Source of the DNA: Lachnospiraceae bacterium AC2029
GTDB taxonomy: Bacteria; Bacillota; Clostridia; Lachnospirales; Lachnospiraceae
Assembly: GCA_000703065.1 (NCBI GenBank)
Contig: JNLK01000001.1
Location: 1,116,001-1,180,000 of the forward strand
Direction: 5' to 3'
Length of the DNA stretch: 64,000 bases
Positions within the stretch are counted from its first letter, which is position 1; every line of letters begins with the position of its first letter. The notes under the pieces are model-generated. The model was not told where the DNA came from and made no database searches. It saw only the letters and a program-made list of their open reading frames with translations. Below are positions 707 through 21,306 of the stretch, piece after piece. A program made the translations under genes and the position numbers.

Positions 707-1924
707 CTAGTTCAGTTTTTTCACGTCCTCCGCATAGGGCGAAGCGGAGAGATAGAAATCATCAAACGTTTCTTCAATACACGGGCAGCTGACAAACTGC
801 TCCGGTGTAACATCCCCGTTTTTCATGGAAATTCGGTGACCGGTCTCATTAAGATGGGTCAGGAGCAATGAAACCCTGCAGTTCTCCATGCCGCCTCTGT
901 CGAGATCCCTGCGAACCTCCTTAACAAATGCGGTCTCGCTTTCGTGACGTGCATACCTGAGCTGCCCCTGCCATCTGTTTGTTTCATTTGTCCTGTCCTT
1001 ACAGATCTTCCCTATCTCTTCAGGACTGCATTCACACTCAAGTCTTCCCGCTCCATGTCGGGTAACGTAGGATCGGGAGACATAAATCGCTTCATCAAGA
1101 GAACTGCCGATCAGATCAAGGAACCTTCTGACGGAAAGAAGACCTGTATTCGAGGCGGTCACATGTGGTGCATATTCCTCATTGTCCTTGTCCAGCAAAA
1201 GCCCCTGCCCCGATTCAAAAATCAGCGTTCCGACACCATCGAGCAGATCCTTCAGTTCACGCGGGGTCAGGATCTTAACATGGCGAAGGTTGTCGGCCAT
1301 CACATCCGCTGCATTTATTATCACATTGTCATCTGAGAGAAGGCCGCAGTACTCTTCAGCCCTTTCATCAAGGCTGTTTCCGATATCCTTCAGCCGTGCA
1401 AAGGTGTATTCGGAACGCAATTTGAACAGTCTGACACAAAGCTCATCTGCAGAAAGCCCGCGGATATCACCGAGCTTCAGACCATATCCGGCTCCTGTAC
1501 GAATATCACACTCGTTGATGCCCATGCCGCAGCTTCCGTGCCTCTTCTCACCGCGTGATGACTCCAGCGCCATATTCAGCAGTACATCATCGGGAACGGT
1601 GATGCAGGTATCCTCCATGGCATAGATATCGGGAACAAAACCAAAGGCATCCTGAAACTCCGTCATCTCCTCGCCGAGCTTATAAATGTCCGGATAATAT
1701 CCGGGCGCCCAAAGAGTCGCCGCATGACAAAGCGAGCCCGATGAAAGCTCATGGAAAACAAATCTTGTATTCTCCGGCAGTCGACGCTCAACGGTATGAC
1801 CGGACTGTGCGCCGCCATTATGACGCACGATAAGCGGATGTATGGAATTAAGGGAAAGGTAATCGACTGCCAATCCCTTTCCCTCATCTCCGAAATTTTT
1901 CCCTATTACGGCAACTGTTCTCAT
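707..1924 (-). CDS. Divergent adenylosuccinate synthetase-like protein (PurA family)
   Basis: A 405-residue protein, slightly shorter than canonical PurA (about 430). Seen: the P-loop GDEGKG near residue 12, SGHTVE with the catalytic His (PurA has NAGHT), FESGQGLLLDKD and HVTASNT (PurA FEGAQGTLLD and VTSSNT), and SYVTRHGAG (PurA YSTRVGAG). PurA joins IMP and aspartate using GTP. Here the guanine-recognition TKLD motif reads THLN, and the aspartate-binding TTGRxRR loop is altered. Nucleotide or amino-acid specificity may therefore differ from housekeeping PurA (inference). Its ATG overlaps the stop of the vWA gene as ATGA, so it is the last gene of a kinase-like/vWA/PurA-like operon. That setting argues against simple purine synthesis. 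Confidence 0.82.
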   Translation of the reverse strand: MRTVAVIGKNFGDEGKGLAVDYLSLNSIHPLIVRHNGGAQSGHTVERRLPENTRFVFHELSSGSLCHAATLWAPGYYPDIYKLGEEMTEFQDAFGFVPDIYAMEDTCITVPDDVLLNMALESSRGEKRHGSCGMGINECDIRTGAGYGLKLGDIRGLSADELCVRLFKLRSEYTFARLKDIGNSLDERAEEYCGLLSDDNVIINAADVMADNLRHVKILTPRELKDLLDGVGTLIFESGQGLLLDKDNEEYAPHVTASNTGLLSVRRFLDLIGSSLDEAIYVSRSYVTRHGAGRLECECSPEEIGKICKDRTNETNRWQGQLRYARHESETAFVKEVRRDLDRGGMENCRVSLLLTHLNETGHRISMKNGDVTPEQFVSCPCIEETFDDFYLSASPYAEDVKKLN

Positions 1925-2799
1925 AACCTCAGTGTTCCGCCCGTATTTGAAAGTGTTAACTGTCTGAGCATATTCTCAAGCATCGGAGCCTTGAGAGTAT
2001 CGCACTCGTTCAGAATGGTTTCCAGACTCTCGCCATTCTGGAGTCTTATGGTTCCGATAATGATATCCGGAATCATGTCTATTTCCGACTTCTGGATCAC
2101 GATCTTGTGACCATGAAGGATGTCCGGATTACCGTCCAGGCCGATCATGATATGGAATACATGGAACTTCTGCTGAACCTCCTTGAGAAGATCGTTCACG
2201 GACGCATTCGGGATATCGTCACCGATCACCCTCTTGATGGTTTCACTGACCCGATCCTTTCTGATCTCCGCGTCATCACCGATGGTAAAAACGAAGCCCT
2301 TCTGATTCCTCTTGTTGATCGCATCTATATTGGTATGTCTGGAGAGAAATTCCCAAAGACATGTCGGTACAACATCGCCGCTTCCGCGATTCTCAAAGTA
2401 AAGATCAAGCAGCTGCTCGGCGATGCGAATGTCGGACTCGAACTGAGTGACCTGCAACGGAGAACCATCCGCATAATCACCATATGCAGCGCACATAAGT
2501 GCAGGATCCTCAACCGTGCCGGTGGAATACAGCTTCATGATCAGGTCATTCAATGCCTCCGAAGCAACCTTAACCGCCAGATACCCCATGGAGCCTGTAA
2601 CATCAAGTCCTACAACGATCGGAGTCGAATGCGGATGATCCTCGGAATCAAAGCATTCTCTTGTTCCGATGTACCTTGGGTCATACTTCGGATCACAGCT
2701 TTTCTTCTTGAAAACCTCCTGAACGCTTCTGGTTGCAGTAAGATTTCTGCTTTGCTTAAGCTTGGACCAGTCACTTGCTGAATAACTACCATACCCCAT
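1921..2799 (-). CDS. von Willebrand factor A (TerY-like) domain protein
   Basis: A 292-residue soluble protein with a single vWA fold. The MIDAS metal site is visible as VVGLDVTGSMG (DxTxS) near residue 65, with further acidic loops at AAYGDYADG and FTIGDDA. vWA proteins are metal-dependent adaptors. The version next to a zinc-ribbon kinase resembles TerY of the TerY-P triads (vWA, PP2C phosphatase, kinase) described for tellurite-resistance-linked stress systems; no phosphatase is present here. The start is fixed by GGAGGAG six bases upstream. The gene begins 12 bp after the pseudokinase gene and overlaps the PurA-like gene by 4 bp, so all three are probably translated together. Confidence 0.85.
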   Translation of the reverse strand: MGYGSYSASDWSKLKQSRNLTATRSVQEVFKKKSCDPKYDPRYIGTRECFDSEDHPHSTPIVVGLDVTGSMGYLAVKVASEALNDLIMKLYSTGTVEDPALMCAAYGDYADGSPLQVTQFESDIRIAEQLLDLYFENRGSGDVVPTCLWEFLSRHTNIDAINKRNQKGFVFTIGDDAEIRKDRVSETIKRVIGDDIPNASVNDLLKEVQQKFHVFHIMIGLDGNPDILHGHKIVIQKSEIDMIPDIIIGTIRLQNGESLETILNECDTLKAPMLENMLRQLTLSNTGGTLRL

Positions 2800-2811
2800 A
2801 ATACACTCCTC

Positions 2812-3684
2812 CTATATTGTCATTTTTACAAATTTATGTCCGCCAAAGCCCTTTTCGATAACCTTATCCCACTTTTCGAAATCGAGAAATGCGTCAGGTT
2901 CAGGAATCGAATTGAGAAAGTCGTATAGTTCCTTCGGATCCCTTGTATTCTCCGCAAGAGCGATCGCCGTGTCCCGGACAGCGGAAAGATCCAGCACCCC
3001 GCTTGCCGACTGAACCCGGCGCCAGTCTCCGAACAAAGCCCCCTCATGAGTAACCGGATTGACCCATATCGAACCCGGAGTGATATTCCCATGCTGTATA
3101 CCGGAATACTTCAACAAGCAGCAAATATTCTCCATTCTGGAGATCACCCATGCAAGCTGCTCTGAAGCCCAGGGGCGGAAATACTCGGCGGGATAGAAAT
3201 TGGGATATCTGCGGAACACAAGTGCATAAGCCCCCGACTCAAGCCCAAGCTCCATTTTAAGCTCAGGCACGGTGCGATGGAGCTTGTCATCCGCCGGAGG
3301 AAAACTCAGCCGTCTTACTCCCGCCAGAAACGTCTTTGCATCCTCTGCCCTGTCAAAAACATAGATAACGGATTCCCTGGCCAGATAACACACATACCCG
3401 TCGTGCTCTGTCTTCAGCATATAATCGATCATAAGCGGATCTCCGCCGGCAAGGGTATAGCTGTCCTGCCCCCTGCAAAACCAGCTTATGTCTTTGCTGT
3501 AATCATTTTCTTTTTTCAGGGCCTCTGCCCTGTAGAACTGCAGAAGTCTTTTTCTGAATTCCTCATTCCCCTTAAAATCCTCATCCGACAGATAGCCCTT
3601 GGAACCGCAATACGGACACTCAAACCCGGTCGTCCCGTTGATCTCTATCTGTCCTCCGCAGGTTTTACATTTGTAAGCAACCAT
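2812..3684 (-). CDS. Zinc-ribbon plus protein kinase-like (probable pseudokinase) protein
   Basis: A 290-residue protein. Residues 1-30 form a zinc ribbon (CKTCGG and CPYCGS). The rest resembles a Ser/Thr kinase catalytic domain: the catalytic loop reads IQHGNITPGSIWV instead of HRDLKPEN, and the DFG position reads FGDWRR. The catalytic Asp is Asn and the metal-binding Asn is Ser, so catalytic activity is doubtful. No clear ATP-binding lysine segment was found. It is the first gene of the operon with the vWA and PurA-like genes. A probable promoter (3755-3783) and a short palindrome lie upstream, and AAGG six bases before ATG supports the start. Confidence 0.7.
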   Translation of the reverse strand: MVAYKCKTCGGQIEINGTTGFECPYCGSKGYLSDEDFKGNEEFRKRLLQFYRAEALKKENDYSKDISWFCRGQDSYTLAGGDPLMIDYMLKTEHDGYVCYLARESVIYVFDRAEDAKTFLAGVRRLSFPPADDKLHRTVPELKMELGLESGAYALVFRRYPNFYPAEYFRPWASEQLAWVISRMENICCLLKYSGIQHGNITPGSIWVNPVTHEGALFGDWRRVQSASGVLDLSAVRDTAIALAENTRDPKELYDFLNSIPEPDAFLDFEKWDKVIEKGFGGHKFVKMTI

Positions 3685-3754: not shown

Positions 3755-3783
3755 ATTATACTATTTTTCCCTTATGAAGTGAA
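3755..3783 (-). promoter_or_regulatory. Probable sigma-A promoter of the pseudokinase/vWA/PurA-like operon
   Basis: On the minus strand, TTCACT and TATAAT are separated by 17 bases, with an AT-rich spacer. It lies about 70 bases upstream of the pseudokinase start codon. A short inverted repeat (TGTCA, five bases, TGACA) at 3728-3742 sits just downstream in the leader and could be an operator (inference). Confidence 0.6.
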
Positions 3784-3852: not shown

Positions 3853-5013
3853 TCACCTCCCGGTCGCAGCCCGGATCATTTTTCTGTCCACAAATGCCAG
3901 CAGCCACGCTGCTGCAACGGCCAGTACATACACCAGCAAAACGTAGAGGACATCCGGCATGGATCCGTCCGGTCCACCCGGAAGCACTTCCCGGAACAAT
4001 TCGTGGATCAGATAGATCTCATAGCTGATCCCACCGAGGAACAGGAGTGTCCGGTTGTGAAACTCCACCTTCAGGTTTACTAAAAGCAGAACGGACAGGA
4101 AGAGCATGCAGAGCACGATCTGCGCCAGCAGAGTGATGAGCTTCTCGGGATATCCCGGATGCCCCGCCCATTCCGAATAGTAACCGAAGCGTCCCTCCAC
4201 GAACATCCCCAGCAGATACCATCCGATGAAAAGGAGCACCGACAGCGGAAGCAGAAGCCTGTAACGCTTCTCCATCGCTGACCGGATGCGCGTCTCATGC
4301 TTCGAAACAAGCATGCCGACGATAAAAAGAAATGTGGTATTGTACCACCACTCCCCCATAAACCAGCGACGGTTGACGGAGGTACTGTCATGCCCGAGCA
4401 GCAGGGAACAGGTGATCATCAGAATCGTAAAAAGAGTCAGACAGATCATCGCCGCACGCTCAGACCGGATGAAACGGAAGAATACGAAAAATGCGAGATA
4501 CAGCAGGAGCAGTTCGATCACATACCAGGCATTTCGGTTCAGAAGAGGCCATCCGAATATGGCCGTGACGCCCTGCCATACACCGGAGATCCTGTCACCG
4601 GCAAAGACACAGAGGTAGATGACATTTGTCAGAAGAAAAGGGATCAGAACCTTCAGAAAGCGATGACGCAGAAAACCCTTCAAGTAATCCTCCCCGGTCT
4701 TATACCTTTTGTACAGTCCGTAGCCGGAGAAGAAAAAGAAGACGCTGGTGAAAAGGATCCCGAAGGAATTCCATATGGTGACCGGTCCCTTATTCACTCT
4801 GCCGTAACGCGTGATGGTCTGAACCAGATGATGTAGGATGATCATCAGCGCAGAAAATGCCTGAAGCGCCTTGGCCTGTCCCAGGCTCCAGGCTTCCCCG
4901 CTGAACTCACCCTTCTTCTTCACGCCGGCCCCGAACACAAGAATCGTGACGATCGCCACCGGAAAAAGAAACAATAAAAACTCCGTCATATAATCCACGG
5001 TACCTGTTGTCAT
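3853..5013 (-). CDS. Acyltransferase family 3 membrane protein (OafA/YrhL-like)
   Basis: A 386-residue polytopic membrane protein with about ten hydrophobic helices. The early segment ALMIILHHLVQTITRYG carries the conserved His pair region of acyltransferase-3 proteins, followed by SVFFFFSGYGLYKRYK and LLNRNAWYVIELLLLY. These enzymes transfer acetyl or other acyl groups to extracytoplasmic sugars, peptidoglycan or lipids; the acceptor cannot be predicted. The start is supported by AAGGGAAG upstream. The gene is monocistronic, and the 167 bp after it holds the promoter of the next leftward operon. Confidence 0.88.
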   Translation of the reverse strand: MTTGTVDYMTEFLLFLFPVAIVTILVFGAGVKKKGEFSGEAWSLGQAKALQAFSALMIILHHLVQTITRYGRVNKGPVTIWNSFGILFTSVFFFFSGYGLYKRYKTGEDYLKGFLRHRFLKVLIPFLLTNVIYLCVFAGDRISGVWQGVTAIFGWPLLNRNAWYVIELLLLYLAFFVFFRFIRSERAAMICLTLFTILMITCSLLLGHDSTSVNRRWFMGEWWYNTTFLFIVGMLVSKHETRIRSAMEKRYRLLLPLSVLLFIGWYLLGMFVEGRFGYYSEWAGHPGYPEKLITLLAQIVLCMLFLSVLLLVNLKVEFHNRTLLFLGGISYEIYLIHELFREVLPGGPDGSMPDVLYVLLVYVLAVAAAWLLAFVDRKMIRAATGR

Positions 5014-10788: not shown

Positions 10789-11754
10789 TTAATGCTTGTA
10801 TCGCATTATATGTCTCATCCTCGCTTGATATGACGGATTGCTGGACTCATGAATAAGATTCTCTATCTCCATAATCTTTTCTCTGCTATAGATAGGCTGG
10901 TCATAGGATCGAATGTAGTCCAACATTGTATCCGAATATAGTACCGGTGATTTTGTATTCACCTGCAGATTACAATTTCTTGAAAAGACTACAACCGGAA
11001 CAAACTCATCAATAGTCCGATGAATACAACGTTCAAGAACCTGCATATGCCTCTCGTTTTGTTTCAAGGGATTATAAAACCATCTCCGGTTTTCTCTAAC
11101 CACCTGTGTCCATCGATAGTCTTCTTCCTGTCCCAGGATAACTCCTGCATAATTCTTTGTTTCGATAACGAATATGCCATACTGCGAAACAACAATGTGA
11201 TCTATCTGACTGGATGTTTTTCCTATTTCAATCAGGACATCATTCATTACATGATACTGATCCTTCGGAAGCGTGGAAAGCAGATCTTTCACTATTTTCT
11301 CTCCAATCTTTCCTTTCATTTCAGCGGAACATGATACCCGAAGCGGAAGATGTGCGCCTTCTCTCCTCCAAAAAGAATCATCCCACGGAAGATCAAAGAT
11401 ATCATTCCAATCCACTTCCCATGCTTCATCCCAGGAATCTTCCAATTCATTCTCAAGATCGTCAAGTTCCTCAAGAATATCTTCCAGATCATCGTCATCC
11501 TCTGCATCTTCCAGATCATCACGGATATCTTCTAACTGTTCCTGAAAGTCTTCACGATCCTCTTCTGACATCGGGGATTTTTGAATCAATGTGAACAATC
11601 TGCTAATCTTTTGGGATGCAGATCCCGCTTTTATATACCAGCCTCTGCTTTTGGGACGATCCTCATCATCGTCATCATCCCAGTCATCGTCATCATCCCA
11701 GTCATCGTCCCAATCATCATCGTCATCCCAGTCATCGTCATCATCCCACAACAT
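10789..11754 (-). CDS. NERD-domain (nuclease-related) protein with Asp/Trp-rich N-terminus
   Basis: A 321-residue protein. Residues 3-32 are almost pure Asp with regularly spaced Trp. Residues 55-110 are an acidic, probably coiled segment (EDREDFQEQLEDIRDDLED). From about residue 145 comes a NERD domain: KGKIGEKIVKDLL, SQIDHIVVSQYGIFVIETKN and an AGVILGQ segment, matching the restriction-endonuclease-like core (Glu, Asp, Glu-x-Lys). NERD proteins are predicted nucleases common in accessory regions. AAGGTG upstream supports the start. It precedes the EEP nuclease gene by 46 bp. The acidic tail could mimic nucleic acid or bind cations (inference). Confidence 0.85.
   Translation of the reverse strand: MLWDDDDDWDDDDDWDDDWDDDDDWDDDDDEDRPKSRGWYIKAGSASQKISRLFTLIQKSPMSEEDREDFQEQLEDIRDDLEDAEDDDDLEDILEELDDLENELEDSWDEAWEVDWNDIFDLPWDDSFWRREGAHLPLRVSCSAEMKGKIGEKIVKDLLSTLPKDQYHVMNDVLIEIGKTSSQIDHIVVSQYGIFVIETKNYAGVILGQEEDYRWTQVVRENRRWFYNPLKQNERHMQVLERCIHRTIDEFVPVVVFSRNCNLQVNTKSPVLYSDTMLDYIRSYDQPIYSREKIMEIENLIHESSNPSYQARMRHIMRYKH
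11662..11748 (-). repeat. Low-complexity GAT/TGG codon repeat encoding the Asp/Trp tail
   Basis: On the plus strand the DNA repeats units of the form cagtcatcgtcatcatcc, so the protein reads runs of three to five Asp separated by single Trp. The arrangement is nearly periodic and could expand or contract by slippage. It lies at the 5' end of the NERD-domain gene. Confidence 0.8.
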
Positions 11755-11858
11755 GTAAACACCTTATCCTTTCAGCAAATAATATCTCAGTCTCTAGAGG
11801 CTTCGTCTACTCCTCATTACTGCCGAACAAAAGTCCATGCGCCGGTCTTCATTGACAA

Positions 11859-12125
11859 CTATATCCAGCTATAATCCCCACCTGTCTCAGCAAGGCTTAA
11901 CAAGGCATCGTACTTCTCGACATCTTCCCCTTCCAGTATCTGAATAAGCTTCGCGCTTTCCTTCACCTTCGGTGCCTCTTCGTCCGGTCCAACCTCCATG
12001 TCCGGTTCTTCACCGCAGTGTGGACATACGATCATCGGCCCGGTCTTTACATCAAGGAACCGTGTTCCACAGTCATCACATTCATAGAATCCGCAACGTT
12101 TTGTTTCGTCTGGTACGTAGTACAT
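11859..12125 (-). CDS. Small zinc-ribbon protein
   Basis: An 88-residue protein with two zinc knuckles, CDDCG and CPHCGE, separated by 17 residues, then an acidic tail ending DALLSLAETGGDYSWI. It is probably a nucleic-acid or protein adaptor; the function is unknown. GGAGG lies six bases before ATG. It is upstream of the NERD gene on the same strand with a 104 bp gap. A second, internally deleted copy of this gene lies at 13683-13766, and both copies are preceded by a protein end reading LTYF followed by three residues and a TAG. Confidence 0.75.
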   Translation of the reverse strand: MYYVPDETKRCGFYECDDCGTRFLDVKTGPMIVCPHCGEEPDMEVGPDEEAPKVKESAKLIQILEGEDVEKYDALLSLAETGGDYSWI

Positions 12126-12126
12126 A

Positions 12127-12192
12127 CTAATCCTCCAAAAAATAAGTCAGCATCTCGTATCTCAGTCTGCTGCCTTCCCTCTCTTCTTTCAT
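12127..12192 (-). pseudogene. C-terminal remnant paralogous to the 13.8-14.1 kb small gene
   Basis: In frame before the zinc-ribbon gene, the minus strand encodes RLRYEMLTYFLED and then TAG, one base before the zinc-ribbon ATG. The gene at 13768 ends YTRLQDLTYFRKD with TAG in the same position relative to the zinc-ribbon relic. Only this tail is present because the EamA transporter gene ends at 12198. It is short, so homology rests on the shared ending and shared context. Confidence 0.4.
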
Positions 12193-12197
12193 CCAAG

Positions 12198-13190
12198 CTA
12201 CGTGGTAGCAGCGCCGCCAAATGCATCCGCAACGATCAGGACGCTTCCCAAAACGATACTGAGCAGGCAGATGTATTGCTTAAGACTTACCTTTTCCTTA
12301 AGAAGCACGCGTCCGCCGATCATTACAAAGACAGGATATACAGCAATGATAGGATCCGTTGAAACAGAATCTATCGCCATAGCATAGCTGTAAACAACAA
12401 TCCCGACATTATCCGCGAGAGCTCCGAACAATCTTGGAACATTTTCTTTTTTGAACGGATTATAGACTTTCTTTTCCTTCCAAAAGATATAGATATGGCA
12501 TCCAAGAGCAAATACTGCATACTCCATTCCGACAATGATGATGCTGTCTCCCTCAGGCATCGAGAAACCATAAGTGGTATCAAGACATATCCCCGTCACT
12601 ACAGTCTCCAGACCGTCGATCAGAGCATACATGAGCGGGAAGATCAGCGTTCCCAAGCCTATATGCTTCCATGATCTTTTGGAGCCGAATGGTTCGGCAT
12701 CCCTCTTGCTTCTGGCATCCTTATTGCGAATAACCGCCAACACGATAACGCTTATCAGAATGATCAAAATCCCTATGGTCCTTAACGGAGTCAATAACGT
12801 TAAGATGGAATCCACCCTGCCCATTACCACATATGCAAGGATCAGAAGTATTGTGGATGTGCCTCCGCTTATCCCCTCAACCGGAGACTCTACGGTAACC
12901 TCATTATAAATGAATCCTTTAAATGAGATCGTATTGATAATGGCATAAACAATTCCAAACAATGTCATGGGCCAATATCTTACTGCGCTCTCCCAAATAG
13001 AGAAAGGTTCATCACGCATGATCAGATAAATGAGAGCGATCACGAAAAAAACAATCCCGATAGATGCTGAATACTTTATGCAGGTATGTTCTTCCTTTTC
13101 CTTATGGATCCCTGCCTTGTACAGCAAGCATGTAGTCGACCAAAGAATGATAGCCGCAATTGTGCAACCGAACCAAATGATAGTATTCAT
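12198..13190 (-). CDS. EamA/DMT-family transporter
   Basis: A 330-residue integral membrane protein with about ten helices and two EamA-like halves, for example IIWFGCTIAAIILWSTTCLL at the start and QYICLLSIVLGSVLIVAD at the end. DMT transporters export or exchange small metabolites such as amino acids, nucleosides or sugars; the substrate is unknown. GGGAGAG eight bases upstream supports the ATG. The gene and the peroxiredoxin lie between the two copies of the small zinc-ribbon gene, as though inserted within or duplicated around them. Confidence 0.85.
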   Translation of the reverse strand: MNTIIWFGCTIAAIILWSTTCLLYKAGIHKEKEEHTCIKYSASIGIVFFVIALIYLIMRDEPFSIWESAVRYWPMTLFGIVYAIINTISFKGFIYNEVTVESPVEGISGGTSTILLILAYVVMGRVDSILTLLTPLRTIGILIILISVIVLAVIRNKDARSKRDAEPFGSKRSWKHIGLGTLIFPLMYALIDGLETVVTGICLDTTYGFSMPEGDSIIIVGMEYAVFALGCHIYIFWKEKKVYNPFKKENVPRLFGALADNVGIVVYSYAMAIDSVSTDPIIAVYPVFVMIGGRVLLKEKVSLKQYICLLSIVLGSVLIVADAFGGAATT

Positions 13191-13234
13191 AATAAGAGCT
13201 CTCCCACATGTGTAAACTCTGCCTCAATTACCGA

Positions 13235-13690
13235 TTATCCCAACATGTCCAACATTTCCTGGGGATTATCCGCAGCCTTCACTTTATCCATCGCCTGAAC
13301 GATAACGCCATCTTCATCAATCAGATATGTCGTGCGGACAACTCCCATGGAGACTTTTCCATAGTTCTTCTTCTCCTTCCAGACATCATATGCCTTGATC
13401 ACAGAAAGCTCTGTATCTGACAGCAACGTGAACGGAAGACCGTACTTTTCCTCAAATCGCTTATGTGAGGCCACGGAATCCTTGCTCACACCCAAAACCA
13501 CAGCGCCGGCTTCCCGTATCTGCGGATAGCGGTCAGCAAAGCCACATGCCTGCTTTGTGCATCCGGCGGTGTTATCCTTCGGATAAAAATATAAAATCAC
13601 CCTTCTTCCTCTGTAATCCTTCAGAGAATGCATCTCCCCATTCTGATCCGGAAGTGTAAACTCCGGTGCCGATGTACCAATTTCAAGCAT
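13235..13690 (-). CDS. bcp: Peroxiredoxin, BCP/PrxQ type
   Basis: A 151-residue thiol peroxidase with the typical length and motifs: TSAPEFTLPDQNGE at the N-terminus, the active site DNTAGCTKQACGFADR with peroxidatic and resolving Cys five apart, and VLGVSKDSVASHKRFEEKYG. It reduces hydroperoxides using thioredoxin-like donors. The ATG at 13690 with GGAGGAG upstream is preferred. A longer in-frame reading to 13735 runs into the relic of the zinc-ribbon gene, whose 3' part now supplies the ribosome binding site region. Confidence 0.92.
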   Translation of the reverse strand: MLEIGTSAPEFTLPDQNGEMHSLKDYRGRRVILYFYPKDNTAGCTKQACGFADRYPQIREAGAVVLGVSKDSVASHKRFEEKYGLPFTLLSDTELSVIKAYDVWKEKKNYGKVSMGVVRTTYLIDEDGVIVQAMDKVKAADNPQEMLDMLG

Positions 13691-13766
13691 AAATCTCCTC
13701 CAATTCCCGCCTGTCTCTGCAAGGCTTAACAACACATCGTTTTGTTTCGCCAGGTACGTAGTACAT
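13683..13766 (-). pseudogene. Internally deleted relic of the small zinc-ribbon gene
   Basis: The minus strand starts MYYVPGETKRC, matching the zinc-ribbon protein start MYYVPDETKRC. It then jumps to DNA matching that gene's 3' end (TTAAGCCTTGC followed by GAGACAGG), which in its original frame encodes LLSLAETGG. About 190-220 bp between are missing and the frame is shifted, leaving a 27-codon reading frame that overlaps the peroxiredoxin start. A deletion between short GATG-like matches would explain the junction. Confidence 0.75.
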
Positions 13767-13767
13767 A

Positions 13768-14116
13768 CTAATCCTTCCTGAAATATGTCAGATCTTGTAA
13801 GCGAGTGTATATATAATGTATCTCACTTGTTCTAAACATTTCCTGAAGATGATGAATCAATACCTGTTTGCTCTTTGAATTCAAAAGCCATTTTGCAATT
13901 TGTTCTATCTCTTCATCTGACAGTATATATAATCTTTCATTTCCGGGTTTTTGTTCAACAAGCCTGTCCCTTATGGCATCTTGAAGCCAGGCAAGCTTAT
14001 CTTCATTAGACTCATTAATATCCGGTAACAAAATAATCCTCCTTCCCTGTCTTGTTATATTTTGGATACCATTTATCGTTCGCCGAATACTTCTCATAAA
14101 AAAGGTCATCGCCCAC
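13768..14116 (-). pseudogene. Small protein of unknown function, probably frameshifted
   Basis: The distal part encodes NESNEDKLAWLQDAIRDRL through YTRLQDLTYFRKD and looks like genuine protein. The ATG-initiated upstream part is implausibly basic. A different frame, starting at a GTG (14116) nine bases after GGAG, reads MGDDLFYEKYSANDKWYPKY and continues to a TAA near 14018. A single-base indel around 14020-14040 would join the two into a protein of about 115 residues. The family is not recognised. Alternatively the 113-residue ATG version is intact. It directly precedes the zinc-ribbon relic. Confidence 0.5.
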
Positions 14117-14172
14117 AGTAATACACTCCTTTATCAGAATTCATTCCGTGATTCAAGTGTCTCTCAGCACCC

Positions 14173-15021
14173 TCATCCGCAAAAACACTCCGAGAACACC
14201 CGATAGTTCTCATCCCTTCCCGGCGGGCAATAAACCGCAAATTCAATCTTCTCAAAAACCTTCGGGAACTCATTCAACGCCGTCCTGAACGCTCTTGCCA
14301 CAACCTTCGGGTTGTTCTGAAACGCCCCGCAGCCAAATGCACCAAGTACCAGAATTTCCGCCTTCATGCTCGCTGCGCATGTCAGCATATGGATGGCCCG
14401 CTTCACGTGATAGCCGTACAGCTCCACGTCCTTCATATAGGACCCGCCATTCACGATGGGAACATAGGGATTCGAAGACTCCCGAAGATCCGGTGCCGCT
14501 ATGGTGATCACATCCACAGTAACCCAGTCCTGCTTCTCCATACGTCGGGGCAGGTCTTCATCCGTCTTACAGATAACCACACCCTCGGTGTAAATCAAAG
14601 AATCCGTAGCCTTCGGATCATTCCTGTCAATATGATGCTTGTAAAATGTATCTCTGATCGTCCGTCGGTCCAGAAGCGGGTACAGCGTAGATGTCCGGCA
14701 CAAGCACTCCTCCTGTGCGGTGCAACCACTTGCAACCCCACCCCCGGGATGAAATGCGTTGGCGAAATTCATCACCGCGATCTTCGCCGAAGGGTTCTCC
14801 TGTCGAAGCCGCATGGCAGCCTGAAAACTCCGATCCTGCGTTACGGTGATCACCGTATCTCTTCTCCAGTTTGCGTCAAACGCCGGGTACTGGTCCTCAT
14901 AAAACACGTGGGTATTCTTCTTCGCCTCTGTCACCGAATCCGAAAGCTCCTTATCCGCCTCGATCCAGGACAGAGTATCCTTAAAAACAGCTATTCTCTC
15001 ACTACGTGTAGACACTGCCAT
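14173..15021 (-). CDS. Microbial-type poly(ADP-ribose) glycohydrolase (TIGR02452/DUF2263 family)
   Basis: A 282-residue macrodomain-like protein. The bacterial PARG signature is clear: MNFANAFHPGGG followed by SGCTAQEECLCR near residues 84-110, giving the GGG-x(6-8)-QEE catalytic motif. Later VLGAFGCGAFQNNP supplies the ADP-ribose-binding loop. Such enzymes remove ADP-ribose polymers or ADP-ribosyl groups. GGAGG lies only two bases before the ATG, whereas a GTG two codons later has ideal spacing, so translation may start at 15015. It lies in a stretch with RES, KptA and TIR proteins, all linked to NAD+ or ADP-ribose. Confidence 0.9.
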   Translation of the reverse strand: MAVSTRSERIAVFKDTLSWIEADKELSDSVTEAKKNTHVFYEDQYPAFDANWRRDTVITVTQDRSFQAAMRLRQENPSAKIAVMNFANAFHPGGGVASGCTAQEECLCRTSTLYPLLDRRTIRDTFYKHHIDRNDPKATDSLIYTEGVVICKTDEDLPRRMEKQDWVTVDVITIAAPDLRESSNPYVPIVNGGSYMKDVELYGYHVKRAIHMLTCAASMKAEILVLGAFGCGAFQNNPKVVARAFRTALNEFPKVFEKIEFAVYCPPGRDENYRVFSECFCG

Positions 15022-15039
15022 TACCTCCTTCGTACCTCT

Positions 15040-15396
15040 TCACATATTCATACGATATTTCGACAGATCAACTCTTCCACCACTCACTTCGACACCTTCA
15101 GCCTCCAGAAGCATCGTCTGCCCCTCAATACCACCGAACGCAAATGCACTGGACAGTTCTCCTTTTGCATTCACCACACGATGACATGGTATATGCTCGG
15201 GATCCGGATTCCTATGAAGTGCATTCCCGACAACGCGGGCTAGATTTCTGTTACCCGCTAATTCTGCAATGTCTCCATAGGTTGAAACCTTTCCATACGG
15301 AATGCACTTTACAGCTTCATAGATTCTATTGGTAGCACTATCTAAAACCATTGCAACTCCATCAATATCATCTTGCAGCATAGATATCCTAAACAC
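15040..15396 (-). CDS. Methylated-DNA cysteine methyltransferase domain protein (Ogt/MGMT-like, C-terminal domain only)
   Basis: A 118-residue protein with the DNA-binding and active-site domain of O6-alkylguanine alkyltransferases: YEAVKCIPYGKVSTYGDIA, NLARVVGNALHRNP and the acceptor-cysteine motif IPCHRVVNAKGELS. The Cys is present, so it is not an Atl-type inactive paralogue. The N-terminal Ada-like domain is absent. Start choice is uncertain: GTG at 15396, ATG at 15381 or ATG at 15351, the last with GGAG five bases upstream. It lies 18 bp before the PARG gene, so the two may be cotranscribed. Confidence 0.85.
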   Translation of the reverse strand: MFRISMLQDDIDGVAMVLDSATNRIYEAVKCIPYGKVSTYGDIAELAGNRNLARVVGNALHRNPDPEHIPCHRVVNAKGELSSAFAFGGIEGQTMLLEAEGVEVSGGRVDLSKYRMNM

Positions 15397-15447
15397 ACCT
15401 TCTTAATCCAACATTTTTCTCATGGATCCAGGTCCCCGTCCCCCTTA

Positions 15448-16269
15448 TCAATGGTTCTTGTTAGTCTTGCTGAATGTTTTTATCATCACCTCTAGACCTT
15501 TCACCCTCTCGCATTTCTTCGGTTCTGCCGAAATAAAGTCAATTTTATCATATCCCTTTGCCGTCAATGCGTAGTTCCCGTATTCCAAACCATTAAGTGT
15601 TATTATCGGTTTAACTCCCGATAACTCCATCGGTGCATATACCGAAGAGTATCTGATACCATAACCATTTTTCTTGAAAAGAAGTTTACCAAGTTTGTTA
15701 GTAGCATCATATATCTTTGGTAATAATTTATAAATGTACAGCGGGGCAAGCATATCAAGTGCTAATTCCTCCAAAGGCTGCTTTCTGACCAATTTATAAT
15801 ACTTTTCAATCAGATCTTTTTCTGTGTCCGTCAAATCGCCCTCATTTGCTATCGACATAGCTATTTTATGAAGTAATGAATTGACCCTGCTTTTACCCCC
15901 TAGGAAACTACTAACTATAAATGGTTCATTGCAAATATAACGAGCCAGATAGTACTCTTCACCATCCTTCAGTTTCACTTCTCGTTCAAGTGCATCAGGA
16001 GTTGATGCAATATAAAGAACCGATTCCCCTTTTGAATTTAATCTCCCTTGACTAATTATGGACCTCGGTGCCGGTCCCCACTCCTGCGGATCATTGGGGT
16101 CTTTTATCCCTTCCGCACGTCTTATTCTGTAAAACTCGTCGCCCTTTGAAATTGTCACATCTTCTGTAAAAACGCTCAGTTTCTCACTATTACTTAAACC
16201 GAAATACATCGCAAGAAATTCCGAAATACTTCTACAACTGAGCAACCTGTGCTCCATTTCACTCGTCAA
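15448..16269 (-). CDS. RES-domain protein (NAD+-targeting toxin-like)
   Basis: About 273 residues. The RES fold is indicated by FYRIRRAEG (conserved Arg), ISQGRLNSKGESVLYIAST, then ALEREVKL (conserved Glu), and later GIRYSSVYAP (conserved Ser). RES proteins resemble ADP-ribosyltransferases; several are toxins that degrade NAD+, usually paired with an Xre-type antitoxin. No such antitoxin lies beside this gene. TTG at 16269 is preferred because GAGGAG lies seven bases upstream; GTG at 16290 is an alternative. The gene is flanked by the alkyltransferase and an HsdR fragment. Confidence 0.75.
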   Translation of the reverse strand: MTSEMEHRLLSCRSISEFLAMYFGLSNSEKLSVFTEDVTISKGDEFYRIRRAEGIKDPNDPQEWGPAPRSIISQGRLNSKGESVLYIASTPDALEREVKLKDGEEYYLARYICNEPFIVSSFLGGKSRVNSLLHKIAMSIANEGDLTDTEKDLIEKYYKLVRKQPLEELALDMLAPLYIYKLLPKIYDATNKLGKLLFKKNGYGIRYSSVYAPMELSGVKPIITLNGLEYGNYALTAKGYDKIDFISAEPKKCERVKGLEVMIKTFSKTNKNH

Positions 16270-16318
16270 GAAATCACTCCTCTTCTTCACCTCTTCACGT
16301 CAACCGATGTTCTCCTAT

Positions 16319-17008
16319 TTATGCAACCGCATTCGTGTTTATCTCATCAATGACCTTCCGAATCCCCTGCCATACGGACAGATCAGTAAATATCTCAACC
16401 ACACTGCCCTGGTCAGTGAACGGCGCTTCCTGAAGGACAGACAGATCCTTCATCATTCCATTTCGAACGATATACTCGACAATCTGATTCACAAAATATA
16501 TCTGTCTAGAGTCCATTGTCGTACCATTCAGATAATCGGCAAACGCTTCTTTCGCTGCATTCATATCAAGTCCGACAATCTCTCTAACAAACTCTCCCAA
16601 TGGCTTCGAACCATATTCCGCTTCATAATCCTGCTTCGTACCAATCTTCTGCCACAGTATTGCCTCCAAAGAATCTACATCCTCTTTTGTAAGCGGTCGA
16701 TTCGTTCGAAGCTTTGCTATGACTATATCGTCCTTATGTTGACGAACATAGTACTCGGCCTTTGCCTTATAATTTTGAAGGCTTTGATCTTCAAGATCAG
16801 ACTCCTGCCACTCTTCAGAAATGATCTGATCTTCAAAGTTAGTGTGATATTCAAGATCCTTTTTCGGAATATACTTCATTAAATCACGAAGTCTTGTGCG
16901 AATTTCCTCCCACTCCTCAGTATTTGCTGAATCAATATAACTCGTGTTCAGTAATGTCGAAATGAATTCCTGTTCCTTCTTTATTTCCGGAATCGTAGCA
17001 TATCCTCG
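16319..17008 (-). pseudogene. hsdR: N-terminally truncated type I restriction endonuclease subunit HsdR
   Basis: Only the C-terminal helical domain remains, about 230 residues. Segments such as YKAKAEYYVRQHKDDIVIAK, LTKEDVDSLEAILWQKIG, GEFVREIVGLDMNAAKEAF and the ending WQGIRKVIDEINTNAVA match the C-terminal domain of type I R subunits (EcoEI type). The frame is open upstream of the internal ATG at 16879 as far as a TGA at 17009. The helicase and nuclease domains, and any hsdM or hsdS, are absent. It marks an earlier restriction system eroded by recombination next to kptA. Confidence 0.85.
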
Positions 17009-17054
17009 TCAGCAAAAACTCATATGAAACTTTTGAGATATCTTCCAACGGCAT

Positions 17055-17594
17055 TTATATTGCCACCTTACAAAGATACCCCACCGGCACTTCCTTCGTC
17101 AGCCATACTCCGTTCTTCGACAGGTAGAACTTGTACCCGTCCCGGTTCATCTCCCCGGCCTTTACGATGTACAGCACCGGTTTGCCGTGGCGCTGTCCCA
17201 CCTTCACCGCGGTCTCTCTGTCCCTGGAGAGATGTACGTAAAGGCGACTCTTGGGGATCAGACCCTGCGCGTCAATGGAGGCTTCATACTTGGTGGCGGT
17301 GCCGTGCCACAGTTCCTCCGGAGGTGCGACCTCGTCCAGCTCCACATCCACCGGGATGGAGTGCCCCTGGTTCGCACGGATCAGGGTTCTGTCCTCGTTG
17401 AAGGAGTAGCGCTGCTTCTCATCCGTCCGGACGATCTCCTCCAGAATGTCCATATTGAATTCATGCGTGCGGGAAATGCCTTCGATCAGCTCGTCCACAT
17501 TTGCCCAGCCATGCTCATCCAGGGTGATGCCGATGGTTTCCGGCTTATGACGGAGGATGAGGCTCATATATTTACTTGTTTCTCTGTGTCCCAT
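17055..17594 (-). CDS. kptA: RNA 2'-phosphotransferase KptA/Tpt1
   Basis: A 179-residue protein close to the E. coli KptA length. Motifs: [17 protein letters not shown] and [13 protein letters not shown] (winged-helix part), [48 protein letters not shown] and [10 protein letters not shown]. Tpt1 enzymes use NAD+ to remove a 2'-phosphate from RNA, forming ADP-ribose 1'',2''-cyclic phosphate; bacterial roles are unclear and ADP-ribosylation of RNA ends has been shown for some. The ATG at 17594 has AAGGAG six bases upstream and is preferred over 17615. Confidence 0.93.
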
Positions 17595-17617
17595 TTTACG
17601 CTCCTTACTGTTCATAC

Positions 17618-17683
17618 AAAAAGGCGCCTGAAGAAATGCTCAGCACCATTTTCCGGTGAGTGCATTCAAGCGCCCTTTGATCA
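17618..17683 (-). terminator. Rho-independent terminator with long imperfect hairpin
   Basis: On the minus strand, GGGCGCTTGAATGCACTCACC pairs imperfectly with GGTGCTGAGCATTTCTTCAGGCGCC and is followed by TTTTTG. It lies between the leftward small membrane-protein gene and kptA, and would end transcription before kptA. Confidence 0.7.
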
Positions 17684-17805
17684 GCTCCCTGTTTCAATGG
17701 AAAAGCAAAACAATCCTCGTCCAATCAGCATTGCTTATCCCCCTTGTTTTCTGCTATCCCCTCAGGACAACATTTTACCATAATATCAGGGAAAATTCAC
17801 CTTCT

Positions 17806-18186
17806 TTACCGCATGTTGATGGGCTGCGGATTCACCGGATCCGTCGGACGGACATTCTGCCCGTAACCCAGGCCGGCCATACGGTGAACGCCGCCTTCGA
17901 TCACATCGCAGCTGTCCGTCATCCGACGGCTGTTGTACGCAATAAAGGCCTGTGCCACCAGATGATAGTACAGATACTGTCCGGCCAGGATCAGAAGGAT
18001 CCCCGGAAGGAAATACTTCTGTCCCGCCAACAGTATGGTCTCCAGTTGCAGGGGAGCCTTCTTGTCCCCTCCCAGGAAATACAGTACGATGGGCGCCAGG
18101 ATCAGCACCGCTCCCATAAATATCAGGAGTACGCGGACCCATTTCGCCATTCGTATCGCACCTTTTCTTACGCTTTCTTCTTCCAT
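17806..18186 (-). CDS. Small membrane protein of unknown function
   Basis: A 126-residue protein with two hydrophobic helices (VRVLLIFMGAVLILAPIVLY and FLPGILLILAGQYLYYHL). A short cytoplasmic tail rich in Asn and Pro ends PTDPVNPQPINMR. AGGAAC about nine bases before ATG gives weak support for the start; an internal ATG at 18150 is possible. The family is not recognised. It is followed by a terminator near 17650, and the region upstream holds another terminator at 18332-18379, so it is probably monocistronic. Confidence 0.6.
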   Translation of the reverse strand: MEEESVRKGAIRMAKWVRVLLIFMGAVLILAPIVLYFLGGDKKAPLQLETILLAGQKYFLPGILLILAGQYLYYHLVAQAFIAYNSRRMTDSCDVIEGGVHRMAGLGYGQNVRPTDPVNPQPINMR

Positions 18187-18331
18187 AGCCTGTTCCTCTC
18201 TTTCTCATTTTTTTGCAGACTCCGGAACTTACTTCTCCCTGCGTTTCCCGCCGCGCGGACATGTCCGGGTGTGTCCTGCCTGATCATATTATGCATTCCG
18301 GCGATGTCCCAATGAACTCCCATCTCACTAA

Positions 18332-18379
18332 AAAAAGACACGGCTTCTCATGCACGCACGCATGATGCCATGTCTTTTT
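18332..18379. terminator. Bidirectional rho-independent terminator
   Basis: AAAAAGACA and TGTCTTTTT form the outer arms of a hairpin, with an inner CATGC/GCATG stem. Runs of A on one side and T on the other allow termination in both directions. It separates the TIR-NACHT gene (ends 18510) from the small membrane-protein gene. Confidence 0.75.
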
Positions 18380-18509
18380 CTTATCAAAAACTTCACTTTA
18401 CTTCACTAAAAACTTCACTACTTCATCTTGAATCTAAAAAGAGAAACAGGGATCACACGTAACAGAAGGACTAGGGGGACAAACCGGTATTTTCACATCT
18501 GTACACCGA

Positions 18510-21269
18510 TCATCCCATTCCCCACCTTGCTTTTGTCAGCTTCAGGTCTCTGCGGTAATGGAGATTCTGCGGATAATCCGAAACCAGTTTTTTTCGGATG
18601 TCTATACATCTTCTGCAAAGCTCTTGCGCTTCCTCAGAAGCATTCATTTTTATTTTCAGATCAGCCATACGTTCCAACCCCTCCGCATAGAAGGATCGGC
18701 ATACCGGATCCTCCGGATAATCCACCACCATGGATTCTCTATATAGGAGTGCCTCCCGGAACATCTTCATTGCTTCCTCATCCTTGCCCTGAGTATCCAG
18801 GATCTCCCCCATACGCACAAGCGGGACCGTATAAGCAAGGCGAAATACCAGATTATCCGGTTCCAGCCTGATCAGCTCTTCACGAATACTCTGGCTTTCC
18901 CGGTAAAGTTCAAGAGCTTTCTCCGGATCCTCTTCCGTCCATGAGCTGGCGTATCTTGCGACACAGGAAGCGATCTCCCGCCGGTGCATGAGACAGTCCG
19001 GTTCATCCCCCGCAAGCGCCCTGACCTGCTCAGTACTCTCCAGATATAACCTCCGCGCCGTTTCCATATCCTGAACATCGAACCGTACGTCTGCCACCTG
19101 CTTCAGGTCCGTCATCAGAGCGAGCCTGTACTCTCTCCTCTTCGGATCTATACTCATCAGTTTTTCACTCAGCAGAAGTGCTTCCCTGTGGTACCTCTCA
19201 GACTGTACAAGGTCATCCAGATGCCAGTAGTTTGAGCCCTTTTTATCCTTTGCATTCCGAAGCTGGTAAAGGCAGTATTCATCCTCCGCATCCCCGAACA
19301 TCCGCTCAAGCTCATCACAGAGGGACAGCGCATCCTGAAAACGGCTTTCCCTCCGAAGATATTCCTCAAGCTCCAGCACTCTGCCGATCAGCGCCGTATC
19401 CCTTTTTACCCGTTCATATTCCTTCCGCATCTCCGCCTCCCTGAGGAAACGAAGAAGATACATGGTGCTAAAGTTGTCCAGTCGGTCCTCTATATACATC
19501 TCATAGGCGGCCGATGCAAAATTCCTTTTGCCATCCTGCCGCGAACTATAATACCTTCCTGCTCCTGTGGTATTCAGCCACTCTGCAAAGGAGAGATGGA
19601 ACACGGTGATCCGGTCTCCCTTTTCCAAAAGCAGCATGGAAATGGGCTGTCGAAAGGCGTAATACTCGTTCTCACCCCATTTCATCATCCGTCTCAGTGT
19701 ATTTACCGGGATCGGCTCAGGTGAAGCGGTAATGATCCCCAGGGGTTTCTGCCAGAAGCTTCGGTAACCATCCGCCCCCTCCTCCGATCCCGGAAGAGTA
19801 AAGTTCTTCCGGTCAAGCGACAGGCGAAAAAGCTCCGAAAGTCCCACGGGAAGGGGATAACTCTTCAGATCCGTCTTCGGGTCCAGTTTTACGTCCTCCA
19901 GCACATTTTCACATGCACATTCCGCATAGGCGAATACACCCCCTGCAGCTTCGGTAAGCCGCAGGTAGAATTCTTCCCTCTCTCCGCCGTACTCCGCCAG
20001 AGTCTCATCCAGCCTGAACCGGAGATACTCCCGCATATCTGCGTTGTTCTCCTCCACCATCTCATCCAGTTCGATCCGGTCACAACCGTAAAAACACTCA
20101 CGGATCTCCGGTTCCGGCCGGGCAGTGATCAGAAACCTGCACCAGGACGCAAACTGTCCGGCATAATCCCGGATGAAATGCATCAGTTCATCGCCGGATG
20201 CCTCATCCAGGGCATCGATCAGCAGGATCATATTCTCTCGTTTTCCGCTGATATTGCAGTCTCCCAGAGGCTTCACCAGCAAACGCCGGAACCGGTCCTT
20301 TCCCTGTCCGATACTGAAATTATCGTCCTGGATCATTTTCATCAGCAGACTCCGGTATTCCGGAATTCGCATGGCCATCTTATAGGCGATCCATACGATG
20401 ATGCTGTCCTCGCTGCTGTACTCCTCGCTCTGAAAGTCGCAGGAAAGCGCTGCAGCCACTCTCGGATTATAATGCTGCAAATGGGCGGAGAAGGCAGATT
20501 TTCCGGCACCCGGCTTGCCATATAGGAGAAGGATCCTCTTTCCTTCCGGATCATCCAGCCAGGTATCGATCCTTTTCCGCAGCCATTCCCGGCCGATCAG
20601 CTTCTTCCCGGCCAGAATATCCAGCTTCGTCAGTTCCAAATTGATCTCCGGAAGACGAAGCTTCTCCCGGAGGGTCTGAAGTTCCGAGTTATACTGTCTC
20701 ACCTCGTCACTGTCAAGCATCCGGATGATCTGAAGCGCTTTCTCCTCCAGATATTTATCCCATTCATCACCGCCCCGGTCCAGATATATCCGGTAATCGC
20801 TCATATCCGCCCACTGATACTCCCTGGTCTGGGCAGGGGCATCGATTCTTCCCTCCGGCTCCAGAAGCACAGACCGGATCATTCCATGCTTGGATGCGAT
20901 GGCAATGGCCAGCTCATCCAGACAGGGGCCCCTTTCCCGGGTGGAATATTTGGACAGAAAAGCCATCACCGCATAGGAGCCGCAGATTCCCTCGGTGATC
21001 TTCTGTCTCCAGTTCGTCCACTCATCTATTTTTGTTTTATCGATCCAGATCCTTATCCGTCCGTCGGTGATCTGCTCGATCCGCTGACTCAACTGTACAA
21101 CAAACTCAGCATGATTGTCATGGCCATAACTGAAGAAGATCTGCATTTCCTGTTTCTCCTCTTCCTGCCCGGGTACAAGGGGAACCATCTGTGCACACCT
21201 GTGGCAGAAACCATGTATTCCGTCCCGAAAGATCTCAACCTCTTTTGAATTGCATTTCCCACACAGCAT
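18510..21269 (-). CDS. Zinc-ribbon/TIR/NACHT/TPR STAND protein (NLR-like)
   Basis: A 919-residue protein. Residues 1-30 are a zinc ribbon (CGKCNSKEVE and CHRCAQ). Residues 43-165 are a TIR domain: MQIFFSYGHDNHAEF, RIWIDKTKIDEWTNW, and AFLSKYSTRERGPCLDELAIA with a candidate catalytic Glu. A NACHT-type NTPase follows, with Walker A LLYGKPGAGKSAF (about residue 250) and Walker B MILLIDALDEASG. The C-terminal third is TPR-like (EALLLSEKLMSID, RLYLESTEQVRAL, EAMKMFREALLYRE). TIR-STAND proteins sense invaders through repeats and then degrade or cyclise NAD+. The ATG at 21269 follows GGAGG by nine bases; earlier in-frame codons are arginine-rich and lack such a site. It begins 37 bp after the AraC gene. 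Confidence 0.88.
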   Translation of the reverse strand: MLCGKCNSKEVEIFRDGIHGFCHRCAQMVPLVPGQEEEKQEMQIFFSYGHDNHAEFVVQLSQRIEQITDGRIRIWIDKTKIDEWTNWRQKITEGICGSYAVMAFLSKYSTRERGPCLDELAIAIASKHGMIRSVLLEPEGRIDAPAQTREYQWADMSDYRIYLDRGGDEWDKYLEEKALQIIRMLDSDEVRQYNSELQTLREKLRLPEINLELTKLDILAGKKLIGREWLRKRIDTWLDDPEGKRILLLYGKPGAGKSAFSAHLQHYNPRVAAALSCDFQSEEYSSEDSIIVWIAYKMAMRIPEYRSLLMKMIQDDNFSIGQGKDRFRRLLVKPLGDCNISGKRENMILLIDALDEASGDELMHFIRDYAGQFASWCRFLITARPEPEIRECFYGCDRIELDEMVEENNADMREYLRFRLDETLAEYGGEREEFYLRLTEAAGGVFAYAECACENVLEDVKLDPKTDLKSYPLPVGLSELFRLSLDRKNFTLPGSEEGADGYRSFWQKPLGIITASPEPIPVNTLRRMMKWGENEYYAFRQPISMLLLEKGDRITVFHLSFAEWLNTTGAGRYYSSRQDGKRNFASAAYEMYIEDRLDNFSTMYLLRFLREAEMRKEYERVKRDTALIGRVLELEEYLRRESRFQDALSLCDELERMFGDAEDEYCLYQLRNAKDKKGSNYWHLDDLVQSERYHREALLLSEKLMSIDPKRREYRLALMTDLKQVADVRFDVQDMETARRLYLESTEQVRALAGDEPDCLMHRREIASCVARYASSWTEEDPEKALELYRESQSIREELIRLEPDNLVFRLAYTVPLVRMGEILDTQGKDEEAMKMFREALLYRESMVVDYPEDPVCRSFYAEGLERMADLKIKMNASEEAQELCRRCIDIRKKLVSDYPQNLHYRRDLKLTKARWGMG

Positions 21270-21306
21270 AGTTATCGGCCTCCTCAAGCTATCTTTTCCC
21301 CATTTC

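Follow-up and report, generated by a model that had tools for sequence, protein, structure and literature searches.

What does a bacterium gain from keeping a dead-looking kinase, a von Willebrand factor A (vWA) protein and a diverged purine-biosynthesis enzyme side by side? The question is raised by a stretch of 64,000 nucleotides from Lachnospiraceae bacterium AC2029 (contig JNLK01000001.1, positions 1,116,001 to 1,180,000; hereafter the window, with positions counted from its first letter). Here a tight operon on the minus strand (3684-707) encodes a pseudokinase with a zinc ribbon, a protein of vWA fold and an enzyme of the PurA family. Judged from sequence, the trio is not a canonical PurA, a PurZ or a TerY-P triad. 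We suggest, with somewhat less than even confidence, that it represents a horizontally moving module in which a vWA protein accompanies a re-specified, catalytically equipped PurA-family ligase that uses a new acceptor and is gated by the vWA adaptor. No description of this gene combination or enzyme clade was found in the open-licence literature, and within that scope the trio appears to be a new, previously unnamed module made of known folds.

The enzyme, encoded by the third gene, matches Pfam Adenylsucc_synt (PF00709) at 117.8 bits (cut-off 27) and falls below every PurA equivalog cut-off (TIGR00184, 82.9 against 395.55 bits; NF002223, 98.8 against 402 bits). With the PurZ model NF038379, whose cut-off is 300 bits, it aligns over residues 5-97 only and scores 26.8. 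A canonical PurA is encoded elsewhere in the same genome, at 2,497,750 (550 bits). The enzyme of the operon is therefore a paralogue and not the genome's only PurA, as one of the two grounds for refuting the original prediction would have required. We aligned it with a solved PurA, the canonical PurA of its own genome and 145 relatives, the latter drawn from 162 open reading frames (ORFs), of which a 340-450 aa filter kept 152, minus 7 plasmid or family rows lying outside both groups. The row of the genome's own canonical PurA was shifted near Gln224, Arg143 and TKLD, and residue pairs there come from the solved-PurA alignment or from general knowledge of the enzyme.

In PurA, for which residue roles and numbering follow the E. 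coli enzyme, the TTGRxR loop holds aspartate and TKLD is the guanine motif. The window enzyme and its relatives share with canonical PurA the GDEGKG P-loop, the catalytic-type Asp13 and His41, and the outline of the nucleotide pocket; D13 and H43, the GHT histidine that corresponds to His41, are each present in 144 of 145 relatives, the remaining row being a gap. The specificity positions, in contrast, are altered. The aspartate loop has become TNxxNxxQGxxR, with N313 and Q319 in all 145 sequences and R323 in 143; aligned with the solved PurA, T300, T301 and R303 correspond to W318, Q319 and Q321 of the window enzyme, and R305 is kept as R323. Among relatives, position 318 is mostly aromatic, 319 always Gln and 321 variable. 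The guanine motif reads T[HC]x[ND], with His (104) or Cys (35) and never Lys (0 of 145) at the Lys position and Asn or Asp in 142 of 145 at the Asp position. The Val of the RVG motif is replaced by His290 throughout (145/145), the T-T of GTTGRG by S-C (Cys at the Thr129 position in 136/145) and Asn38 by Gln (Q40, 141/145), and the C terminus is shorter. Retention of the residues that activate the 6-oxo group, together with loss of those that hold aspartate, favours a ligase of PurA type whose acceptor is not aspartate. Should the acceptor indeed be a different one, the reaction would be a new purine modification. The original prediction of a PurA homologue with altered specificity motifs is thus borne out by the family match, the failed equivalog cut-offs and the changed motifs. 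One viral copy (L152, 3403-5925) carries an intein inside the catalytic loop, between GH and T, with a splicing domain just under the Pfam cut-off (34.2 against 35.8 bits) and a LAGLIDADG domain above it (62.1 against 22.5). As a rule, inteins insert preferentially at active sites that are essential.

A tree of 50 proteins placed its 39 PurA-like rows in one group, apart from 10 canonical PurA sequences and one PurZ. Support by the Shimodaira-Hasegawa-like approximate likelihood ratio test was 99 for the canonical PurA split and 81 for the PurA-like group excluding PurZ; the branch of phiVC8 PurZ is very long, which makes its position unreliable, and one canonical row (L212) was left out because no intact ORF was found. 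These results indicate that, at the level of sequence, the PurA superfamily contains a third group, the PurA-like genes, and that this group has a regular partner of its own. Phage annotations name the enzyme adenylosuccinate synthetase or PurZ-type, and our data point to a separate group. Passages of PMC12884076 place 151 of 767 tree sequences in the PurZ group, against 481 phage homologues found. A different acceptor, if real, would supply a concrete function, open to testing, for phage PurA homologues outside that group.

The pairing of this enzyme with the vWA protein recurs far from the window. We gathered 183 loci, each with a vWA ORF (15 from plasmids, phages and the family, 80 from a genome collection, 80 viral and 8 from congeners), and counted neighbours in the 144 whose flanks reach 2.5 kb or more on each side, leaving out 39. 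A PurA-like gene lay no more than 3 kb downstream of the vWA gene in 138 of these 144 loci, and within 8 kb of it in 141. The slot upstream of the vWA gene was filled by the pseudokinase in 100 loci and in 28 by c0, an unrelated protein some 200-260 aa long; none had both, 15 had neither and one had the kinase elsewhere. Two c0 proteins scanned against Pfam had no match. In a reciprocal test, viral loci were fetched via the PurA-like enzyme, and 78 had at least 1.5 kb upstream (2 of 80 were left out). A vWA gene was found in 75 of the 78, in 74 cases upstream on the same strand, and the pseudokinase (24 loci) and c0 (34) never occurred together; several contigs are common to this and the first viral set, and the two are therefore not fully independent. 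Recurrence of the same gene order in plasmids, phages and other genomes places the three-gene operon beyond chance, and the conservation of the trio elsewhere, on which the original prediction had staked itself, is clear from these counts. Pairwise distances among the trio proteins were also correlated (rho 0.47-0.75, with 0 of 500 permutations as high; 57 genome and 32 viral loci), a pattern that shared ancestry alone would also produce. Since the module is common to phages and bacteria while the adaptor gene differs, a role in phage-host chemistry becomes testable.

Variants of the gene order were seen as well. At least 11 loci (L077, L089, L092-L095, L099, L102, L104, L106 and L107) have two adjacent vWA genes before the PurA-like gene, in the order kinase-vWA-vWA-PurA-like; the kinase is not labelled at L099. 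One locus (L047) has a lone vWA family gene beside which no PurA-like gene, pseudokinase or c0 was recognised.

Both partner proteins have folds of a protein-binding kind. The predicted structure of the first gene product has a mean confidence (pLDDT) of 92.1, and its matches in Foldseek are kinases, which confirms a protein-kinase fold; for the second, pLDDT is 85.2 and Foldseek confirms a vWA fold. Both searches cover the matches that Foldseek ranked. Kinase motifs were counted in 116 rows, made up of the window protein and 115 relatives; two more of the 117 ORFs detected were left out. The HRD Asp column holds Asn in the window kinase and Asp in 22 of 116 rows, and the DFG Asp column holds Gly in the window kinase and in 105 of 116 rows, with Asp in 2. 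The strand expected to bear VAIK, assigned by reading the predicted model, has no conserved Lys. Degeneration of the kinase thus extends to nearly all relatives, which supports the degraded catalytic loop first read from the window protein. Its zinc ribbon is N-terminal (residues 6-26), and the CxxC...CxxC pattern is present in 67 of 68 genome-collection sequences of the 116-row alignment, against 1 of 39 viral ones. In the vWA protein, D66, T68, S70 and the distal D175 are invariant in 61 sequences, with Thr standing for the first Ser of the metal-ion-dependent adhesion site (MIDAS). Of the earlier claim of a vWA protein with an intact MIDAS, the fold and most of the site are supported. The vWA protein had no NCBIfam or PADLOC match.

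Scans with an alignment detected at least 521 relatives of the vWA protein in the genome collection and 468 in viral contigs; the single window protein, used as query on the viral contigs, detected nothing. Phage records with a member of the vWA family numbered 206, of which 188 belong to Mycobacterium phages, and plasmid records 21. Within the window's genus, 16 of 61 genomes carry the vWA gene (12 of the 31 with completeness of 90% or more and contamination of 5% or less). A PurA-like gene adjoins it in all 16, and the other 45 genomes gave either no hit or hits of up to 48.1 bits, the level of canonical PurA. The window pseudokinase, searched across the genus, was found in its own genome only, and all 8 loci inspected among the 15 other congeners with a vWA gene are of the c0-vWA-PurA-like subtype. 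Elsewhere in the family the vWA gene was found in 7 of 149 sampled genomes: 5 with the full trio, 1 with vWA and PurA-like genes, and 1 with vWA only, near a contig end. The trio is also present in record JH590863.1 (Lachnospiraceae bacterium ACC2). Wider samples yielded the module in 1 of 299 genomes of the phylum, the window's own, and in 5 of 291 of the class, its own included, so it is patchy and rare overall. The c0 subtype of the congeners, together with plasmid and phage copies, argues for horizontal movement of two subtypes. The trio DNA had no blastn match in the plasmid collection, and the relationship there is therefore visible at the protein level only.

We suggest that the PurA-like enzyme, by analogy with PurA, would use a nucleoside triphosphate to phosphorylate a purine-type nucleotide at its 6-oxo group. 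The phosphate would then be displaced by a nucleophile that is not free aspartate, yielding an N6-type modified purine nucleotide. The metal site of the vWA protein may bind a partner. Together with the pseudokinase, whose place c0 takes in the other subtype, the vWA protein could make up an adaptor that responds to some condition or offers the acceptor, and so turns the enzyme on. That the modified purine nucleotide is a signal or protectant is a reasonable guess. In a weaker step, the output of the module may serve in nucleotide- or NAD-linked stress or in conflict between phage and host, given that several subtypes have NrtR-type regulators nearby and that the pair is found in many phages.

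Using a home-made hidden Markov model (HMM), we detected a protein with NrtR-type NUDIX and winged-helix domains within 8 kb of the module in 7 of 13 plasmid, phage and family loci (Acetobacter, Rhodovulum, Allorhizobium and Rhodococcus plasmids and three family genomes) and in 8 of 8 congeners, and such a gene near the module in 4 of 65 viral loci. It lies on the opposite strand in the Acetobacter, Rhodovulum and Allorhizobium plasmids. Of five proteins compared with Pfam NrtR_WHD, four scored above the cut-off (L197, L024, L204 and L020) and one below (L019). Passages of PMC9503650 describe NrtR proteins as sensing ADP-ribose, which hints at an NAD/ADP-ribose-type signal in some subtypes, though not in that of the window. 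The ARG/NrtR/vWA systems presented there likewise bring NrtR-type NUDIX regulators and vWA proteins together, as some of our subtypes do. The recurring core described here differs in having no ADP-ribosylglycohydrolase, and the words adenylosuccinate and PurA are absent from the main text of that paper.

Several observations weigh against the proposal of a gated ligase with a new acceptor. Loss of the loop residues might do no more than shift the place where aspartate binds, and the activity, complex and phenotype that we propose are predictions. The middle Thr of the MIDAS pattern (DxSxS...T...D) has no confident assignment in the vWA protein; T156 was considered and rejected, its spacing being unlike that of a standard MIDAS. 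The string DFG occurs somewhere in five kinase sequences and HRD in two, and the kinase of a C1 mycobacteriophage retains an IDW motif and an N motif, so inactivity need not hold for every member. The partnership has gaps: 3 of 144 vWA loci have no PurA-like gene within 8 kb, and 3 of 78 viral PurA-like loci have no recognised vWA gene, although in one of these (L232) it lies about 7 kb off on the same contig. The 15 loci with neither pseudokinase nor c0 mean that the third gene is not universal. The neighbourhood HMMs derive from the very loci in which neighbours were counted and can therefore miss divergent partners. The genome-collection loci, the best 80 of at least 521, and the viral ones, the best 80 of 468, are consequently biased to close relatives. 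An NrtR-type regulator was found in only 1 of 58 genome-collection loci, nearly all of the window's subtype, and what matched in viruses may be fusions of NMNAT and NUDIX; for both reasons the NAD link could be a coincidence. The three window proteins had no defence matches in PADLOC-DB.

An unlikely alternative is that the acceptor to which the PurA-like enzyme joins a purine nucleotide belongs to a macromolecule, as a protein side chain or RNA base chosen by the vWA/pseudokinase adaptor; the product would then be a modified protein or RNA and not a small molecule. It would account for the replaced free-aspartate site, for the protein-binding folds of both partners and for an exchangeable upstream adaptor, as acceptor choice would predict. 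PurA-family enzymes are not known to have macromolecular substrates. A bolder form, in which the vWA/PurA-like pair uses PurA-type chemistry to attach the nucleotide to a protein or RNA amine picked out by the exchangeable adaptor (pseudokinase or c0), as a new macromolecular modification common to large phages and bacteria, seems quite improbable to us. We are also strongly inclined to doubt that the enzyme is an ordinary backup adenylosuccinate synthetase travelling by chance with two regulators: its catalytic Asp and His and its nucleotide-pocket outline would fit, but the failed equivalog cut-offs, the replaced aspartate-binding loop and guanine-motif Lys, the canonical PurA in the same genome and the separate tree group speak against it.

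It is very unlikely that the enzyme is PurZ-like and supplies the modification of DNA bases with an unusual (deoxy)nucleotide. The likeness is that of another diverged, phage-borne PurA paralogue: the pair is common in large phages, and the PHROG family label, "2-aminooxy adenylosuccinate synthetase", is the one borne by phiVC8 PurZ. However, passages of PMC12884076 on PurZ and PurZ0 of Z-genome phages give Ser for Asp13 in 100% of 147 phage sequences and Ser or Gly in four archaeal ones. PhiVC8 PurZ carries Ser at this position, whereas the PurA-like clade keeps Asp13. Read by eye, phiVC8 PurZ still has the TT...RR of the aspartate-binding loop that the clade has replaced; the score against the PurZ model is far below its cut-off, the genes beside the PurA-like gene differ from the partners described for PurZ, and the trio is also chromosomal in bacteria. 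Both phrog_1211 and GenBank labels put Asp13-keeping PurA-like proteins together with PurZ under this name, which looks misleading for them.

Passages of PMC11090510 describe the TerY-P triad as a PP2C phosphatase, a TerY-type vWA protein and a Ser/Thr kinase with a C-terminal zinc ribbon. A degenerate triad of this type that recruited a PurA homologue for phospho-signalling, the kinship first proposed for the trio, is highly improbable: a vWA fold, a kinase fold and a zinc ribbon do share one operon, but a Pfam scan of window neighbours, among them those closest on either side, found no PP2C, the ribbon is N-terminal, the catalytic residues of the kinase are gone, TerD is absent from the genome, the vWA protein has no NCBIfam match, and the conserved partner is a ligase. 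In Rhizobium phage RHph_TM39 (L014:1005-2457), HAD hydrolase and PRTase_3 (PF15610) genes lie upstream of the vWA/PurA-like pair and resemble the Ter-linked nucleoside genes described in passages of PMC7824862, a point in favour of such kinship.

The features of the operon are collected in Table 1. Genes 1 and 2 are separated by 12 bp, and a purine-rich, ribosome-binding-like stretch, read by eye, precedes all three starts. Promoter and terminator scans of the operon region gave results near chance, with 6 promoter-like sites against a shuffle mean of 3.5 (standard deviation 1.6), which is not clearly above it.

Table 1. Coordinates of the operon and its sequence features in the window.
Feature	Position	Strand	Basis
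Gene 1, zinc ribbon and degenerate protein-kinase fold	2812..3684	(-)	290 aa ORF, predicted model, Foldseek, family motif counts
Gene 2, vWA-fold protein	1921..2799	(-)	292 aa ORF, predicted model, family alignments
Gene 3, PurA-like enzyme	707..1924	(-)	405 aa ORF, Pfam PF00709, tree grouping
ATGA shared by the stop of gene 2 and the start of gene 3, 4 bp	1921..1924	(-)	ORF coordinates and sequence
Weak candidate promoter upstream of gene 1, TTCACT-17-TATAAT	3755..3783	(-)	promoter scan
Zinc ribbon, C6-x2-C9 ... C23-x2-C26	3604..3669	(-)	sequence pattern
HGN replacing HRD, residues 198-200	3085..3093	(-)	sequence and family alignment
MIDAS core, D66-V-T68-G-S70	2590..2604	(-)	family alignment
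GDEGKG P-loop, catalytic-type Asp13 kept	1874..1891	(-)	family alignment
NGGAQSGHTV loop, His43 kept, Asn38-equivalent replaced by Gln40	1790..1819	(-)	alignments
TNETNRWQGQLR in place of the aspartate-binding TTGRxR loop of PurA	956..991	(-)	solved-PurA alignment, family counts
THLN replacing the TKLD-type guanine motif	848..859	(-)	alignments

By Pfam scan, the upstream neighbour of the trio (3853-5013) is an acyltransferase, and the convergent downstream neighbour, ending at 675, is an endonuclease/exonuclease/phosphatase-family protein. Further along the window, a run of ADP-ribose- or NAD-flavoured genes (10789-21413) includes a NERD nuclease-related gene (10789-11754), a microbial PARG (14173-15021), a KptA/Tpt1 RNA 2'-phosphotransferase (17055-17615) and a protein with TIR, NTPase and TPR domains (18510-21413); an ORF at 15448-16290 is RES-like by eye and has no Pfam match at 0.001. 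In several congeners the c0-vWA-PurA-like-NrtR run extends to a methyltransferase-domain protein of about 650 aa (L197:16740-18686, L201:5437-7422), and over that domain the L197 protein matches PADLOC mad2 at 41.5 bits. Viral loci carry, within 6 kb of the pair, NAMPT-like genes (8 loci, c2) and NMN adenylyltransferase-NUDIX-like genes (6 loci, c5), both named by eye, and in some viral loci a TROVE/Ro60-looking protein, again by eye, lies near the vWA/PurA-like genes (L013:10354-11862, L183:5976-7325).

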